In this document: one piece after another, positions 2,959 to 12,508 of the stretch
Position numbering within the stretch: the stretch's first letter is position 1
Layout: every line of letters begins with the position of its first letter
Position numbers and translations under genes: made by a program
Assembly (NCBI GenBank): GCA_012730045.1
Contig: JAAYBR010000001.1
Location: forward strand, 1-64,000
Direction of reading: 5' to 3'
Source: Candidatus Hydrogenedentota bacterium
Lineage (GTDB): Bacteria; Hydrogenedentota; Hydrogenedentia; Hydrogenedentales; CAITNO01
Length of the DNA: 64,000 nucleotides
Notes under the pieces: model-generated
The model's input: the letters and a program-made list of their open reading frames with translations, nothing else
Database searches by the model: none
What the model was told of the DNA's origin: nothing

Positions 2959-3062
2959 TTTCCCCCTACTCCTCCGCCGGGTCCTCTCCGAGGAGGAGGC
3001 GCACGACGGCGTTGGCCTGGTGGTCGCGGGGGGCCATGAGCCCCCGGCCGGGTTCTGCGGCG
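2959..3062 (-). pseudogene. Duplicated, truncated 3' end of the thiF-like gene (left island flank)
   Basis: This 104-base segment copies bases 6681-6799, the last part of the thiF-like gene plus seven bases beyond its stop. On the minus strand it still reads AAEPGRGLMAPR...DHQANAVVRLLLGEDPAEE followed by TAG, the same C-terminus as the intact protein. It carries one 15-base in-frame deletion (it lacks the VGVAA codons) and a few substitutions. It has no start and no upstream thiF sequence, so it is a fragment. Together with the intact gene it forms a direct repeat around the kinase island. Confidence 0.85.
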
Positions 3063-3245
3063 CGCCCTGTCAGTGGATCAGAACATTGCATACGGCAGGG
3101 GGATATGGATACTATCACTGTGGCGTTGGTCGTTTGGACTGGATCTGACCGACTCAAATGGATGGCGTCCCAAAAGAAAGGTTCTTGCTTGATCGTTGAT
3201 CTTGGTGGTAGCATAGCCATACAGTCAGCAAAGAGGAGAAAAGTT

Positions 3246-3935
3246 GTGGAACAAACCCCTTTCAGTGATGTAACTTTCGCGGATAACCCGGAGCAACGGT
3301 GTCCAAGCCTGCTCCTTCTGGACGTTTCAGGCTCGATGGCCGGAGAACCGATCACAGAGCTTCAGGCAGGACTTGAGGGTTATTGTGACGAACTAGCCGC
3401 AGACCCATTGGCACGCAAGCGTGTGGAGATTGGGATCGTAACATTCGGCGGCCCCCCACGTGTTGTTCAGCCTTTCAGTACGGCTGATGCGGTATCAGTG
3501 CCACAGCTCCAGGCCAGAGGAGACACACCCATGGGGCAGGCTGTCAATATGGGCCTAAGCCTCTTGGACGAACGCAAGAAGGAGTATAAGCAGCACGGAA
3601 TACCTTACTATCGACCCTGGGTCTTCCTGATTACTGATGGTGCGCCCACGGATGACTCTACCCCAGCGTGGCAGGAGGCTGTGGCGCGCCTGCGCACAGG
3701 GCAAGAGGAACGAGCTTTTCTGTTCTTTGCCGTGGGGGTAGAACGCGCCAACATGGACGTTCTGAAGCAACTGAGTGTTTCACGCGATCCTTTGAAGCTC
3801 AAGGGCCTTCGGTTTCGAGATCTATTTTCTTGGCTGTCAAATTCACAACAGGCGGTATCTCGGTCTATTTCTGGCGAAACAGTGCCCCTTGAAGACCCAA
3901 CGGGGCCGACTGGATGGGGTGAGGTTAACGTCTAG
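3246..3935 (+). CDS. vWA-domain protein, YegL/TerY-like
   Basis: This 229-residue protein is a nearly bare von Willebrand factor A domain. The MIDAS metal site is visible: DVSGS at 26-30, a later Thr in RGDTPMG, and an Asp in LITDGAPTDD. The start is GTG 3246, chosen for GAGGAG seven bases upstream and because the frame before it runs back through repeat DNA. Length and position match E. coli YegL, and the next two genes match YegK and YegI. In such trios (also called TerY-phosphatase-kinase triads) the vWA protein is thought to be the phosphorylated adaptor; that role is inference here. The gene is AT-richer than its surroundings. Its stop overlaps the next start by one base. Confidence 0.85.
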   Translation: MEQTPFSDVTFADNPEQRCPSLLLLDVSGSMAGEPITELQAGLEGYCDELAADPLARKRVEIGIVTFGGPPRVVQPFSTADAVSVPQLQARGDTPMGQAVNMGLSLLDERKKEYKQHGIPYYRPWVFLITDGAPTDDSTPAWQEAVARLRTGQEERAFLFFAVGVERANMDVLKQLSVSRDPLKLKGLRFRDLFSWLSNSQQAVSRSISGETVPLEDPTGPTGWGEVNV

Positions 3936-4702
3936 TGTGGAAGACCATTTCCGCAAGTGTCGCAGGCTCAGCACACAGTCGACGGGCTGTAGAATGCCAA
4001 GATAAGTCCGAGGTCCTTGTCTATGATGTTCAAGGGTCGTGCCATCTCGTTGCCGCCGTTGCCGATGGGGCAGGCTCTGCTCTTCATGGAGCCCTTGGAG
4101 CCCAAATTGTTGTCACAGAAATGGTAAGAACTCTAATTCAATGCGCAGATGCAGTTACACCTCCTAGTGAAGTTGACGCTAGACAATGGATAAGCAACCT
4201 TCAAGGGATTCTTGATGAAAGGGCGGCGGAAATATCTGAAGAGATTGGGGCGCTTGCCTGCACTCTCCTAGCGTGTCTAATAGGTCCAATGCATTCAGTA
4301 TTTATTCATATTGGGGATGGAGGTTGGATAGCAAAGGTTGATAATGAGTTGCAGGCTGTGACCTATCCGTACTCTGGAGAATACGAAAACGAGACCGTTT
4401 TCATTACTACACCAACATGCGTAGACAAGCTTCAATTCGTTTGCATTGAAAGGCCTGTCGAGATGGTTGCCGCCTACACAGATGGCCTTCAGCACCTATG
4501 CCTCGATTACAGATCTAGGCGTCCGCACGAGGGATTCTTTGGCCCAATCATGCTTAGACTCAGCGAGACGAAGAACGTGGATGCTCTCAACGAGAGCCTG
4601 GTGGCATTCCTGAATTCGGACGCTATCAACGAGCGCACAGATGACGACAAGACTCTCTTCATGGCGGTGCGCGATGAGGCATATCAGAATACATGCTTCT
4701 AG
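3935..4702 (+). CDS. PP2C-family Ser/Thr phosphatase, YegK/PphC-like
   Basis: The product has 255 residues with the PP2C metal-binding pattern: QD at 22-23, ADGAGSA at 43-49 (Asp44-Gly45), a central IGDGG strand, and a C-terminal DDDKTLF motif. These Asp residues bind the two Mn/Mg ions that activate water. It is the short, minimal form without sensor domains, as in E. coli YegK (PphC), which reverses phosphorylation by its partner kinase YegI. The start GTG overlaps the upstream TAG (TAGTG), and the 3' end overlaps the kinase gene by 10 bases, so the three genes should be translationally coupled. Codon use is AT-richer than the chromosome around it. Confidence 0.85.
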   Translation: MWKTISASVAGSAHSRRAVECQDKSEVLVYDVQGSCHLVAAVADGAGSALHGALGAQIVVTEMVRTLIQCADAVTPPSEVDARQWISNLQGILDERAAEISEEIGALACTLLACLIGPMHSVFIHIGDGGWIAKVDNELQAVTYPYSGEYENETVFITTPTCVDKLQFVCIERPVEMVAAYTDGLQHLCLDYRSRRPHEGFFGPIMLRLSETKNVDALNESLVAFLNSDAINERTDDDKTLFMAVRDEAYQNTCF

Positions 4703-6648
4703 TTTCTGACATGGGTAGAGAGCATCACCTTGGCACCAGACTGGGCCGGGGAGGGGAGGGTGCTGTATTTAGAATATCCAATCGTCCTGGGTTTGTTGCC
4801 AAAATATACCACAAGGCTCTAGGACGCGATCGAATAGAGAAACTGCAGCACATGGTGGTCTTGAACGATAATGAGCTCGCTGCAAATTCTGCATGGCCAT
4901 GTGAGCTGTTGTATCGCAAGCAGACTGAGCCTCCATGTGGATTCGTTATGCAGGCAGTACCATGTGGACACGAGCTCCATGAATTATATGGACCGGCATC
5001 TCGAAAAAGGCTGCTGCCAAACGCAACATGGGCATATTTGGTTCATGTCGCGCGCAACTTGGCGTGCGCCTTTTCTGTGCTTCACGCGCGAAACATCGTT
5101 ATCGGCGACGTAAACCAGAGCAATGCTTTCGCGTGCTTGGACGGAAAAGTTATCCTTGTAGACTGCGACTCGTATCAAGTGACGAGTAGTACCCGATGCT
5201 ATCCCTGCCATGTAGGAGTTCCAATGTACACTCCCCCAGAACTGCAGGGAATGAGCTTCAGAAACAGATGCCGCTCGCCTGAACACGATGGATTTGGGCT
5301 TGCTGTTCTCATATTCCAGCTTCTCTTCATGGGTAGGCATCCATTTGCCGGCATTGGTAAGATGGCCCAGCATCTTTCGCTCGAAAATGGCGAGGCAATT
5401 CGCAGAGGGCTGTACGTGTATGGCCAGCTTGCTCATCAGTCTGGAATGCGTGTTCCTCCTAATACACTGCCAATTAATTCTGTGCCTCCCCGTGTGCAGT
5501 CACTGCTAGAGGCAGCGTTTGTAAACAAAGGAGGACTGTTTCGCCGGCCACAGGCTACGGATTGGGCAACTGCTCTGGATCAACTGAAGAAGGGTCTAGT
5601 TATATGCCGTAGAAACAGTTGTCATGTGTACTCGAACCATCTCAAGAGTTGCCCTTGGTGCATGCTCGCACAGAACATGGGTACAGTGTTCTTTGGCCGA
5701 GCGTCCTTTCACGAGACATCAGGCTTTTCCATCAACAGCAGTTTGAACTACCGAGCTAAGGTAGATGCGCACGTTCTCCAGCTTTCGGCATATCACGATT
5801 TGAATGTATATGTGATGCGATACCACTATGAAGGAACCCCTTTGCCTGCTGCGTGCCGCGGAGTCGCTAATGACTTTATCGCTGGTGTTGTAATAGCATC
5901 TTGTTCTATACTGGCCGCTTATGCGTTTTCGGGTTTCTTTCTATTTGGAGTCCTCTTTGGTTTAGGTGGAATCATGCAAGGTTGGCGTAAGCCAGAGTAC
6001 TATAACCAGCATATAGAAAGAAAAGCACGTCTTAATGTAAGTGAGAAACGTGCTAGGAGTGAATATCAATCCATGCGTGGCCTCCACGAGTCTCTAATGT
6101 CAAAGCATGCGAAAATGAAAACAAGTGCACTGCGAACCGTGTTGGAATATGAGCAGCTGGAATCAGTTTACGATTCTGAAATGCGCTCCCTAGTGCAAAA
6201 GAAAAGAACGCTTCAGTTAGAAGAATTCCTGAAGAGATATATGATTTGCTCTAGTTGTATTTCTGGCATAGGACCTGCTCGAAAAAATAGTTTATTAGCA
6301 TATGGAATCGAAACTGCATCAGATATAGTTGCATCAAAAGTCCTGTTGGTTCCCGGAATCAAGGAACACTACTACCAAGTCTTGTCTCAGTGGAGGCGGG
6401 AATGTGAGAAGAAGTTCATCTACGATCCTAGTCTTCCAGTTCCTGCCGAGGAAATTGACCGATTCAACCGCAGGATGTTGGCGCGTAGAGACAACCTTCA
6501 GGAGCGCATTAGGAAGGTGTTGCACGAACTTGATTCCTTTGAGGCTTCAGCTTCGAAGGATATGAGTGAATCTATACGAGCAGTTGAGGTCGCCTGTCAA
6601 GAGTGGAAAAAGGCCGTTGCAGACTATCGTGTTATGGAAAACACATAG
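4693..6648 (+). CDS. Membrane-associated protein kinase with helix-hairpin-helix domain, YegI-like (COG4248 type)
   Basis: This 651-residue protein has a kinase domain at about 10-300: Gly loop GRGGEGAV (18-25), Lys37 in VAKIY, a catalytic loop IGDVNQSN (137-144, Asp139) replacing the usual HRD, and DCDSYQ (Asp157) replacing DFG. Next comes a Cys cluster C305-C310-C320-C323 likely to bind zinc, one or two membrane segments near 395-427, a charged coiled coil (about 435-515), and a helix-hairpin-helix around 519-545 (SGIGPARK). This order fits the COG4248 kinase/HhH family that includes E. coli YegI. ATG 4693 is used; ATG 4711 is a possible alternative and would remove the overlap with the phosphatase gene. 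It ends 32 bases before the right thiF repeat. Confidence 0.85.
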   Translation: MLLVSDMGREHHLGTRLGRGGEGAVFRISNRPGFVAKIYHKALGRDRIEKLQHMVVLNDNELAANSAWPCELLYRKQTEPPCGFVMQAVPCGHELHELYGPASRKRLLPNATWAYLVHVARNLACAFSVLHARNIVIGDVNQSNAFACLDGKVILVDCDSYQVTSSTRCYPCHVGVPMYTPPELQGMSFRNRCRSPEHDGFGLAVLIFQLLFMGRHPFAGIGKMAQHLSLENGEAIRRGLYVYGQLAHQSGMRVPPNTLPINSVPPRVQSLLEAAFVNKGGLFRRPQATDWATALDQLKKGLVICRRNSCHVYSNHLKSCPWCMLAQNMGTVFFGRASFHETSGFSINSSLNYRAKVDAHVLQLSAYHDLNVYVMRYHYEGTPLPAACRGVANDFIAGVVIASCSILAAYAFSGFFLFGVLFGLGGIMQGWRKPEYYNQHIERKARLNVSEKRARSEYQSMRGLHESLMSKHAKMKTSALRTVLEYEQLESVYDSEMRSLVQKKRTLQLEEFLKRYMICSSCISGIGPARKNSLLAYGIETASDIVASKVLLVPGIKEHYYQVLSQWRRECEKKFIYDPSLPVPAEEIDRFNRRMLARRDNLQERIRKVLHELDSFEASASKDMSESIRAVEVACQEWKKAVADYRVMENT

Positions 6649-6680
6649 TATCACGTGCGCCTGCTGCCCTCCGACATGTG

Positions 6681-6799
6681 TTTCCCCCTATTCCTCCGCC
6701 GGGTCCTCGCCGAGGAGGAGGCGCACGACGGCGTTGGCCTGGTGGTGGGCGGCCACGCCGACGCGGGGGGCCATGAGCCCCCGGCCGGGTTCTGCGGCG
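6681..6799. repeat. Right flank of the kinase island: direct repeat of the thiF 3' end
   Basis: This is the intact copy of the segment duplicated at 2959-3062. It includes the TAG stop of the thiF-like gene (6688-6690) and about 36 codons upstream of it. The two copies lie in the same orientation about 3.7 kb apart and enclose only the vWA-PP2C-kinase trio. No integrase or transposase lies between them. Confidence 0.85.
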
Positions 6800-7503
6800 G
6801 CGGTTCCGTCGCCCACGAGGTACAGGTGGGGCGCGGCGCGGCGGGTGCGGACCGTGTTGGCGGGGCCGTGGCCCGCGAGGCCGGACGCGGCGACGATGGG
6901 GACGCCGGGGAAGGCGCGGGCGTAGGCGGCCACAAGCAGGGCCTTCTGGTCGGCGCGGTCGAAGGCCTCCACCAGCACGTCCATGTCCCGGAAAATGCCC
7001 GGGATGTTCGCCTCCGTGAGGCGCACGGCGTGGGCGGTGAGGGCGACCCCCGGGTTCACGCGGCGCAGGGTGTCGCAGAGCGCTTCGGTCTTCAGCATCC
7101 CCAGCTGGTCCGTGAAATACTGCTGGCGGTTCAGGTTGCTCGGCTCCACCACGTCGAAATCCGCCAGCACGAGCCGGCCCACGCCCATGCGCGCGAGGGC
7201 CACGGCGACGGCGGAGCCCAGCCCGCCGAGCCCGGCGATCCCCACTGCGGCCGCCTTGAGCCGCCGGTGCACGCCGGGCGTGTGGCGCGCGGCCATGAGC
7301 GCCTCCAGCTCCTCCGGCGGCGGGGTTTCCCCCCGGCGGATGAACACCACGGCGTCCCCCTCGCGGAGCGGCAGGTCCTCCGTGACGGCCGCGCCGTTCA
7401 CCACCACCACGTCGGCGCCGGGCTTGACGGCGTCGCGCAGGGAGAAGGCCGTCGCCCCGTCGGGGGCGTCGTGGGGCTGTTCTGACAGCAGAATGCGGGG
7501 CAT
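6688..7503 (-). CDS. thiF: ThiS-like domain fused to ThiF-type adenylyltransferase
   Basis: The 271-residue product has an N-terminal ubiquitin-like ThiS-type segment (about 1-57, with VVVVNGAAV and REGDAVVFI) fused to an E1-like ThiF/MoeB Rossmann domain. The nucleotide loop is GLGGLGS (91-97), with ADFDVVEPSNLNRQ at 114-127 providing the acidic and Arg/Gln residues of the ATP site. There is one cysteine (143), so the zinc CxxC pairs of classical MoeB/ThiF are absent, as in ThiF family 2 proteins. It would adenylate a sulfur-carrier C-terminus in thiamine (or related) biosynthesis. The ThiS segment here lacks its own free Gly-Gly end, so it is probably structural. Start at 7503 has GAGGGA upstream. 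No other thi genes are nearby. Confidence 0.75.
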   Translation of the reverse strand: MPRILLSEQPHDAPDGATAFSLRDAVKPGADVVVVNGAAVTEDLPLREGDAVVFIRRGETPPPEELEALMAARHTPGVHRRLKAAAVGIAGLGGLGSAVAVALARMGVGRLVLADFDVVEPSNLNRQQYFTDQLGMLKTEALCDTLRRVNPGVALTAHAVRLTEANIPGIFRDMDVLVEAFDRADQKALLVAAYARAFPGVPIVAASGLAGHGPANTVRTRRAAPHLYLVGDGTAAAEPGRGLMAPRVGVAAHHQANAVVRLLLGEDPAEE

Positions 7504-7607
7504 GGGCGAATCCCTCATTGCGCGCGGGCGGTCCAACTTGGTAGAGTCAGCGGGGGCGCGGGACACCCCGGTCCCCCACGGAACAACCTCCCAAGGAGAG
7601 ACACACG

Positions 7608-8606
7608 ATGCGGCGCATGACTGTTCTTTCGGGCCTTCTCATTGTAGCACTCGCGGCGGCCGCCGCCCTTCCCGCCATGGCGGCGGACGACGACAAGGTG
7701 ATGGGCGTGTACGAGGGCGCCTTTGACGGCGGCGGCTGGGACGGGAAGACGATCCGCGCCCAGGTCCGCGCCGAGAGCAAGTTCGCCCAGACGGCGGTGA
7801 TCAAGATCGGTGACGGGACGCAGGAGGTCCGGGTCGAGGTGCCGGGCAAGGGCCGTGAGGGCCGTTTCACCTTCACCGGCGAAGTGGACCTCGGCGCGCT
7901 GGGCGGCAAGGCGGAGGTCTCCGGCAAGATCGCCAGCGAGACCTTCACGGGCGCAATCAAGACCAAGAAGGAGGCGGCCTTCACCCTGAAGCGGAGCTTC
8001 CCCGAGCCGCCGACGCGCGGCATGGCCGCCCCCGAGGGCGCCGTGGCCCTGTACGACGGCACGAACCTCGACCAGCACTGGAACCTGGTGCCCCACTGGT
8101 GCCCCCAGCCCGACGGCTCGGTCCAGATCTGCAACACGAACCTCCAGACGAAGGAGGAGTTCGGCTCCGGGCTCTACCACATCGAGTTCATGACGCCCTT
8201 CCTGCCCGAGGAGCGCGGCCAGGGCCGCGGCAACAGCGGCTGCTACATCCTGGGCCGCTACGAGGTGCAGGTGCTCGACAATTTCGGCTGGGCGCCCAAG
8301 GACAACCTCTGCGGCGGCATCTACCAGAAGGCCGTCCCCATTGCGGACGCCGTGCTGCCGCCCCTCCAGTGGCAGACCTATGACATCACCTTCACGGCCG
8401 CGCAGTACGACGCGGCGGGCAGCAAGACGGCCAACGCCCGCATCACCCTGGTGCACAACGGCGTCACGGTCCACGACGACGTGGAGCTGGACAGCCCGAC
8501 GCCGGGCGGCGTGAGCGACCAGGACGCCCCGAAGGGCCCGCTCTTCTTCCAGGACCACGGCAACACCGTGAAGTTCCGGAACATCTGGTTCAAGCCCGCC
8601 GGCTGA
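7608..8606 (+). CDS. Exported DUF1080 (3-keto-disaccharide hydrolase-like) protein
   Basis: This 332-residue protein has a signal peptide (cleavage probably near Ala25-Ala26). Residues about 30-130 form a small beta-rich domain with no clear relatives. Residues about 140-330 match the DUF1080 concanavalin-like fold: GAVALYDGTNLDQHW, the Gly-rich RGNSGCYILGRYEVQVLDNFG strand, and the final GPLFFQDHGNTVKFRNIWF segment. DUF1080 proteins in Planctomycetes and Lentisphaerae act on or bind glycosides; 3-keto-disaccharide hydrolysis is known for some members only. It is divergent from the thiF-like gene and followed 48 bases later by a glycosyltransferase. Confidence 0.8.
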   Translation: MRRMTVLSGLLIVALAAAAALPAMAADDDKVMGVYEGAFDGGGWDGKTIRAQVRAESKFAQTAVIKIGDGTQEVRVEVPGKGREGRFTFTGEVDLGALGGKAEVSGKIASETFTGAIKTKKEAAFTLKRSFPEPPTRGMAAPEGAVALYDGTNLDQHWNLVPHWCPQPDGSVQICNTNLQTKEEFGSGLYHIEFMTPFLPEERGQGRGNSGCYILGRYEVQVLDNFGWAPKDNLCGGIYQKAVPIADAVLPPLQWQTYDITFTAAQYDAAGSKTANARITLVHNGVTVHDDVELDSPTPGGVSDQDAPKGPLFFQDHGNTVKFRNIWFKPAG

Positions 8607-11185: not shown

Positions 11186-12508
11186 ATGGCACACCCCCCG
11201 CCCGGCCGCCGGGCCTGCATACACACCCTCGGATGCCGCCTGAACCAGGCGGAGAGCGCCCTGCTGTGCGACCAGCTCGCCGCGGCGGGGTATGTGGTCG
11301 TGCCTTTCGGCGAGCCCGCGGACCTGGGGGTCGTCCACACCTGCACGGTCACGCGGGAGGCGGACGCGAAGTCGCGGCAGATGATCCGGCAGTTCATCCG
11401 GGCGAACCCCGGCGCGCGCACGGTGGTCATCGGCTGCTATGCCCAACTCCGGGGGGCGGACATCGCGGCGATCCCCGGGGTGGACCTCGTGCTGGGGAAC
11501 GCGGAGAAGATGCGCCTCGCGGAGCACCTCGCCGCGCTGGACGCCGCGCCGCCGGAGGACCGCGTGCGCGCCCCGCGCCTGGGACGCGCGCCGTTCACCC
11601 TGCCCTGGACCCCGGACGGCCCGCCCGTCACGCGGCGCATGAACCTCAAGATCCAGGACGGCTGCGACTTCATGTGCAGCTACTGCATCATCCCCTTCGC
11701 CCGCGGGCGGTCGCGGTCGCGGCGGCTGGACGACCTCGTTGCCGAGGCGGCCTCCCTCGCGGCGCGCGGCGCGCGGGAGCTCATCCTCACGGGGGTGAAC
11801 CTCGGGGGCTACGCCTGCGACGGGAAGACGCTGGTGGACGCAGTGGACCGGCTGAACGCCCTGCCCGGCGTGGAGCGGATCCGCATCAGCTCCATCGAGA
11901 TGACAACGGTGCTTCCCGGGCTGCTGGAGCGCATGGCCGACCCGGCCCACCGCCTCGCGCCGCACCTGCACCTGCCGCTCCAGTCGGGGTCCGACCGCAT
12001 CCTCGCCGCCATGCGCCGCCACTACACGCGCGCGGAGTACCTGGACACCCTGCGCGCCGCCGAAGCGGCCGTGCCCGGCATTGGCCTCGGCGCGGACGTG
12101 CTCGCGGGCTTCCCCGGCGAGACGGAGCAGGACCAGGCGGACACCCTGGCCCTCATCGCCGAAAGCCCCCTGGCCTACCTGCACGTCTTCAAGTACTCCC
12201 CCCGGCGCGGTTCGGCGGCCGAGCGCCTGCCCGAGAAGGCCGACCCCGAAACGGCGAAAAGGGGAAGCGCCGCCCTGCGCGCCCTCGGCGCGGCAAAACA
12301 CCGCGCCTTCCAGGAGCGTCACTTGGGGCGGACGGTCGAGGTGCTTTTCGAGGACCGCGCGGGCGGCTGGTGGACCGGATTCACGGGGAGCTACCTGCGC
12401 GTCGGCGTCCGCGGCGGGGAAGACCTGGCCAACCGCATCGGCCGGGTGGCGGTGGAGGCCGCGCACAAGGACTTCGTCACCGGCACCCTCGACGGCCCCC
12501 TCCGCTGA
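11186..12508 (+). CDS. mtaB: tRNA ms2t6A methylthiotransferase MtaB
   Basis: This 440-residue radical-SAM enzyme has the MiaB/MtaB layout. The N-terminal UPF0004 domain begins with IHTLGCRLNQAES (Cys17) and has further Cys residues in VVHTCTVTREAD and VIGCYAQ for the second [4Fe-4S] cluster. The radical-SAM cluster motif is CDFMCSYC (Cys160, 164, 167). A C-terminal TRAM-like segment starts near 370. The CRLNQAE and NLGGYA motifs fit the MtaB branch rather than MiaB. It would add a methylthio group to t6A37 of tRNAs reading ANN codons. Start ATG 11186 is 22 bases after the sulfatase; the longer frame upstream overlaps that gene and is rejected. Confidence 0.87.
   Translation: MAHPPPGRRACIHTLGCRLNQAESALLCDQLAAAGYVVVPFGEPADLGVVHTCTVTREADAKSRQMIRQFIRANPGARTVVIGCYAQLRGADIAAIPGVDLVLGNAEKMRLAEHLAALDAAPPEDRVRAPRLGRAPFTLPWTPDGPPVTRRMNLKIQDGCDFMCSYCIIPFARGRSRSRRLDDLVAEAASLAARGARELILTGVNLGGYACDGKTLVDAVDRLNALPGVERIRISSIEMTTVLPGLLERMADPAHRLAPHLHLPLQSGSDRILAAMRRHYTRAEYLDTLRAAEAAVPGIGLGADVLAGFPGETEQDQADTLALIAESPLAYLHVFKYSPRRGSAAERLPEKADPETAKRGSAALRALGAAKHRAFQERHLGRTVEVLFEDRAGGWWTGFTGSYLRVGVRGGEDLANRIGRVAVEAAHKDFVTGTLDGPLR

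Follow-up and report, generated by a model that had tools for sequence, protein, structure and literature searches.

A vWA, PP2C phosphatase and kinase trio of the YegL-YegK-YegI kind acquired as a self-contained block at the thiF 3' end in a Candidatus Hydrogenedentota bacterium

The window, as we call the whole 64-kb stretch of DNA analysed, contains three genes encoding a vWA protein, a PP2C-type phosphatase and a protein kinase, situated between an intact thiF gene and an orphan copy of its 3' end. The features of the locus are as follows.

1976-2755, + strand: native flank gene with no Pfam match; its stop abuts the thiF stop in the sister genome
2958-3062, - strand: left direct repeat, an orphan thiF 3' end from which 15 bp are deleted in frame
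About 3063-6679, no strand: foreign AT-richer block of about 3.6 kb holding the trio only, set off by its GC contrast with 2757-2957
3246-3935, + strand: vWA protein, YegL/TerY-like, 229 aa, GTG start; Pfam VWA 3.3e-10; 56.6% identity to E. coli K-12 YegL over 226 aa
3935-4702, + strand: PP2C-type Ser/Thr phosphatase, PphC/YegK-like, 255 aa; Pfam PP2C_2 6.3e-41; 33.5% identity to E. coli K-12 PphC over 251 aa
4693-6648, + strand: YegI-like kinase, 651 aa; Pfam Pkinase 4.5e-9; 30.6% identity to E. coli K-12 YegI over 670 columns
4729-5592, + strand: protein kinase domain, with K37, D139 and D157
5605-5661, + strand: putative zinc site C305-H311-C320-x2-C323 (CPWC)
5863-5985, + strand: predicted transmembrane hairpin, helices 391-411 and 413-431, from hydrophobic sequence and predicted helices
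6241-6411, + strand: helix-hairpin-helix (HHH) region, residues 517-573, aligned to the HHH of YegI; sub-threshold for Pfam HHH_5
6680-6799, - strand: right direct repeat, formed by the 3' end of the intact thiF
6688-7566, - strand: thiF, encoding a ThiS-like/ThiF fusion, an intact vitamin-biosynthesis gene and the apparent target; identified by NCBIfam PRK08644.1 (5e-82) and Pfam ThiF (1.7e-33) and ThiS-like (3e-15)

The initial annotation had described a trio of overlapping vWA, PP2C and kinase genes, likened to TerY-P triads, and a MIDAS of the DxSxS type in the vWA protein, all of which is borne out by the open reading frames and Pfam matches. As in TerY-P, the three genes share a single operon. 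The vWA and PP2C genes share 1 base and the PP2C and kinase genes 10 bases in the ORF list. The HMM search that it had proposed places the vWA and PP2C proteins firmly in their families, with the kinase domain above its cut-off. The MIDAS is complete (D26-x-S28-x-S30 ... T94 ... D131) and the phosphatase bears the motifs VADGAG, IGDGG, YTDGLQ and ERTDDD. Pairwise alignment with YegI runs through both the transmembrane region and the HHH. Judged by full-length homology for all three proteins, the trio is a YegL-YegK-YegI set.

The kinase is the most elaborate of the three proteins, its parts following in the order kinase domain, zinc site, transmembrane hairpin, coiled coil, HHH and coiled coil. 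An alignment of 35 kinases shows the catalytic Lys, Asp and Asp and the four putative zinc ligands to be invariant. The AlphaFold model (pLDDT 90) contains the kinase domain, helices at 391-431, long helices and the HHH; on the strength of this model we read the long helices as coiled coils and the hydrophobic pair at 391-431 as a membrane hairpin. Foldseek searches with the model return protein kinases and confirm the kinase fold only. As to the C-terminal HHH that had been noticed at the outset, the kinase domain is secure and the region aligns both with YegI and with other kinases of the family, but the HHH_5 match in Pfam (E 0.031) lies below its cut-off.

Comparison with E. coli yegL-pphC(yegK)-yegI shows the same three proteins at full length (57%, 33% and 31% identity) and in the same order, YegI sharing the transmembrane and HHH architecture. 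The order was correctly recognised in the initial annotation but the overlaps were not: in K-12, yegL and pphC share 4 bp, and a stretch of 725 bp with yegJ on the opposite strand separates pphC from yegI, although naive ORF calls give a pphC-yegI overlap of 13 in two other Escherichia loci. K-12 yegI also adjoins yegD. At thiF the window trio has neither yegJ nor yegD for a neighbour and runs uninterrupted as a foreign block, its genes touching or overlapping on one strand in the vWA-PP2C-kinase order by which YegLKI loci are defined. With the TerY-P triads (Anantharaman 2012; Gao 2020; PMC10889362) the trio shares a TerY-like vWA protein, a PP2C and a Ser/Thr kinase and, with the ZnR type of these (PMC11090510), a zinc site after the kinase. 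For the stand-alone anti-phage TerY-P modules, however, a kinase bearing an OB fold has been described (PMC11090510); the window kinase lacks this fold and ends instead in the predicted transmembrane, coiled-coil and HHH segments. No ter or CoCoNuT genes adjoin the trio, and its three proteins matched none of the TerY models in the copy of PADLOC used.

In composition the trio stands well apart from its surroundings. GC3 is 0.54, 0.47 and 0.46 for the vWA, PP2C and kinase genes, against 0.90-0.96 in flank genes read in the correct frame (a miaB-like flank gene, in the wrong frame, was left out), and RSCU distances to the flank genes are 0.25-0.29 for the trio vs 0.06-0.10. The early impression of A/T-ending codons between G/C-ending flanks is thereby upheld, as it is by the composition scan, in which, in 1-kb steps, GC drops below 62% nowhere in the window but at 3001-7000. 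GC is 0.48-0.56 in the trio genes and 0.49 at 3063-3245 but 0.70, the native value, at 2757-2957 immediately to the left, and the shift falls sharply at the thiF-tail repeats. Short sequences at 2773-2813, 2918-2950 and about 1045-1170 are found many times over in the sister genome and are, for that reason, taken as dispersed native repeats.

The borders of the block, overlooked in the initial annotation, have an att-like layout: direct repeats of the 3' end of the target gene lie at both, with the intact gene on one side. The two thiF-tail copies are 97% identical over 67 nt, with two substitutions, the 15-bp gap falling further on. In the orphan copy, frame and stop are kept and the missing 15 bp fall in the conserved RVGVAAHHQA region. 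A genome of the same genus, the sister genome, provides the empty site, where the thiF stop comes straight after the gene corresponding to 1976-2755 and the trio is absent; its contigs held no relative of the kinase beyond one weak match. Both window copies of the thiF tail are closer to each other than either is to the tail in the sister genome, and since they are, the duplication probably arose in this lineage, although the region compared is short and the indication correspondingly weak. Acquisition of the trio was horizontal, and the 3.6-kb block that entered at the thiF 3' end is self-contained. Transfer had already been proposed from codon usage, and the presence/absence check suggested at that time agrees, given the empty site and the finding of a full-length kinase in only 1 of 68 genomes of the phylum, that of the window itself. 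The block contains only the three genes and no integrase or recombinase; all seven PF00589 matches in the genome lie on other contigs.

Relatives of the kinase are remote and widely scattered. No relative was found in genome or viral contigs with the single window kinase as query, but a profile search of genome contigs with the kinase alignment did find them, yielding 80 retained loci from many phyla, methanogens included. Across genome, plasmid and viral loci, the vWA, PP2C and kinase genes are contiguous in 64 of 91 (naive ORF calls); these range from Pseudomonadota to Planctomycetota and methanogens, with several on plasmids. With each of 34 homologues the window kinase shares 28-34% identity, and it occupies a long branch in the tree. 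Two other genomes of the phylum (G052 and G022) match the kinase part only. The former, which belongs to the same order, has a trio (L043:4856-7741) whose 390-aa kinase stops after the zinc site, lacks transmembrane and HHH segments and falls apart from the window kinase in the tree. Two weak kinase matches were found among phage records, and IMG/VR yielded two trio contigs and one fragment; as none is close to the window trio, a phage origin of the block is unsupported.

When trio loci were scanned for flanking direct repeats, in comparison with placements in control regions, tight repeats were seen in two: the window and a contig (L076) of a Fimbriimonas MAG. In the latter, perfect 32-bp direct repeats at 8289-8320 and 12017-12048 flank a lower-GC trio segment. 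One is the last 32 nt of an SDR gene, stop included; the other, beyond the kinase, is an orphan copy, and the 32-mer occurs only these two times in the Fimbriimonas genome. By naive ORF calls this block too contains the trio only, with no integrase. A clean empty site was not found for it; a relative has the SDR gene without a trio but with other DNA downstream. The ends of the two blocks have no sequence in common above shuffles, and convincing terminal inverted repeats were seen in neither. The near-equal distance from repeat to vWA start (183 and 184 bp) was taken as coincidence. By their gene and repeat layout, both blocks resemble cis-mobilizable elements (CIMEs) in anatomy. As in CIMEs, the window block lacks an integrase and is framed, where a gene ends, by att-like direct repeats; unlike them, it bears no evidence of ICE ancestry, relaxase or recombinase, its repeats being att-like by position only. 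Tentatively, the YegLKI trio alone might be a mobile unit, inserting at the 3' ends of protein genes by recombination in trans and leaving a duplicated tail, although we think this the less likely case. If it were so, the thiF and SDR insertions, in the window's phylum and in Fimbriimonas, would both stem from a single cassette mechanism that lacks an integrase and would spread a defence module.

What the trio might do is suggested by its relatives and their surroundings. TerY-P triads are active against T7-like phages, as PMC7699616 relates of the work of Gao et al. 2020, and a three-gene TerY-P variant of P. aeruginosa acts against Autographiviridae, most of the cells surviving (PMC10889362). 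For 20 trios we compared the genes up to about 10 kb away with those of 20 control regions at least about 30 kb away in the same 19 genomes. At E 1e-20, PADLOC matches numbered 93+72 models for 213 ORFs near trios vs 16+4 for 223 control ORFs, figures that count overlapping models rather than systems or loci and come from a small sample. Gabija, type I RM, ThsA and OLD are among the matches listed near trios; one control region contains Zorya III. From the published phage activity of TerY-P and this PADLOC context, defence therefore seems the best-supported role, and would by extension apply to the window copy. Our preferred reading, to which we give a probability of roughly 0.6, is that the trio is an accessory module for phospho-signalling, of the YegLKI/TerY-P kind, which was acquired at the thiF 3' end and is most likely defensive.

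Such a module can be pictured as follows. The kinase would sit on the inner membrane by its transmembrane hairpin and autophosphorylate, while the PP2C protein would keep it off; in E. coli, YegI autophosphorylates and is dephosphorylated by PphC, as reported in PMC13232886 (its refs 81, 82). The vWA protein would bind a divalent metal and serve as adaptor or switch, and through the HHH and zinc site the kinase may detect nucleic acid or gain access to it. The trigger, for which infection by a phage or some nucleic-acid stress related to it is the likeliest candidate, would then shift the balance to the kinase, which would phosphorylate targets and so restrict the phage or protect the cell.

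Alternatively, the trio could be a general envelope or xenobiotic stress module responding to metal, tellurite-like agents or DNA damage rather than to phage specifically; the vWA protein would sense metal, and stress genes would be adjusted by the kinase and phosphatase. The original proposal for TerY-P was a metal-sensing phospho-switch (PMC11090510, PMC4978471), genes for an S24 peptidase and a Y-family polymerase are found close to trios on Pseudomonas plasmids, and yegD, the neighbour of yegI, is an Hsp70-family gene. Yet there are no ter genes adjoining the window trio, and the phage phenotypes of related triads (PMC7699616, PMC10889362) point elsewhere, so that we regard this as possible but rather unlikely.

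Much less probable is that the trio arrived by chance and is a decaying, non-functional passenger. Its alien codon usage and the deletion in the orphan thiF tail would fit, as would the fact that a search upstream of the vWA gene found no sigma-70-like promoter, but the three frames are open with their overlaps kept, catalytic and metal residues are intact and a good ribosome-binding sequence, AGGAGA, stands ahead of the GTG at 3246. That the junctions are an artefact of assembly or binning we consider very improbable indeed. The genome is in 155 contigs and composition changes abruptly at the repeats, but the two thiF tails differ by their substitutions and gap, which makes the left copy a real sequence in its own right; next to it, 2757-2957 combines native GC with repeats dispersed in the sister genome, and the same anatomy is seen in the unrelated Fimbriimonas genome.

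Two kinds of gene recur beside other trios. DUF4236 genes lie at most 4 kb from the trio in 7 of 12 cases (19 trio genomes), with 0.025 expected and P 1e-15, a value not from a planned test as the family was picked after its recurrence had been noticed. The encoded proteins, most with an SH3 domain, occur near trios in several unrelated groups. Since the window's own genome has no DUF4236, its trio does without it. Upstream of trios, the His-Xaa-Ser radical-SAM genes hxsB/hxsC are found at 8 loci from 6 kinase groups. The positions are these.

L142:6846-7649, L137:5937-6209, L082:7642-8364, L087:398-1054, L133:6240-6965 and L069:1441-2364: DUF4236 genes near trios
L064:4404-6898, and also L055, L056, L065, L082, L095, L098 and L120: hxsB/hxsC loci

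These neighbourhoods tie DUF4236 and His-Xaa-Ser genes to YegLKI, offering concrete partners for study. The system itself was already known; what is unusual is that the trio seems to have come in so cleanly and by itself. That this copy was transferred as three genes only argues that the trio is functionally complete by itself, and the AT-rich block, together with the empty site in the same genus, forms a natural presence/absence pair for YegLKI, a set that E. coli has as well.
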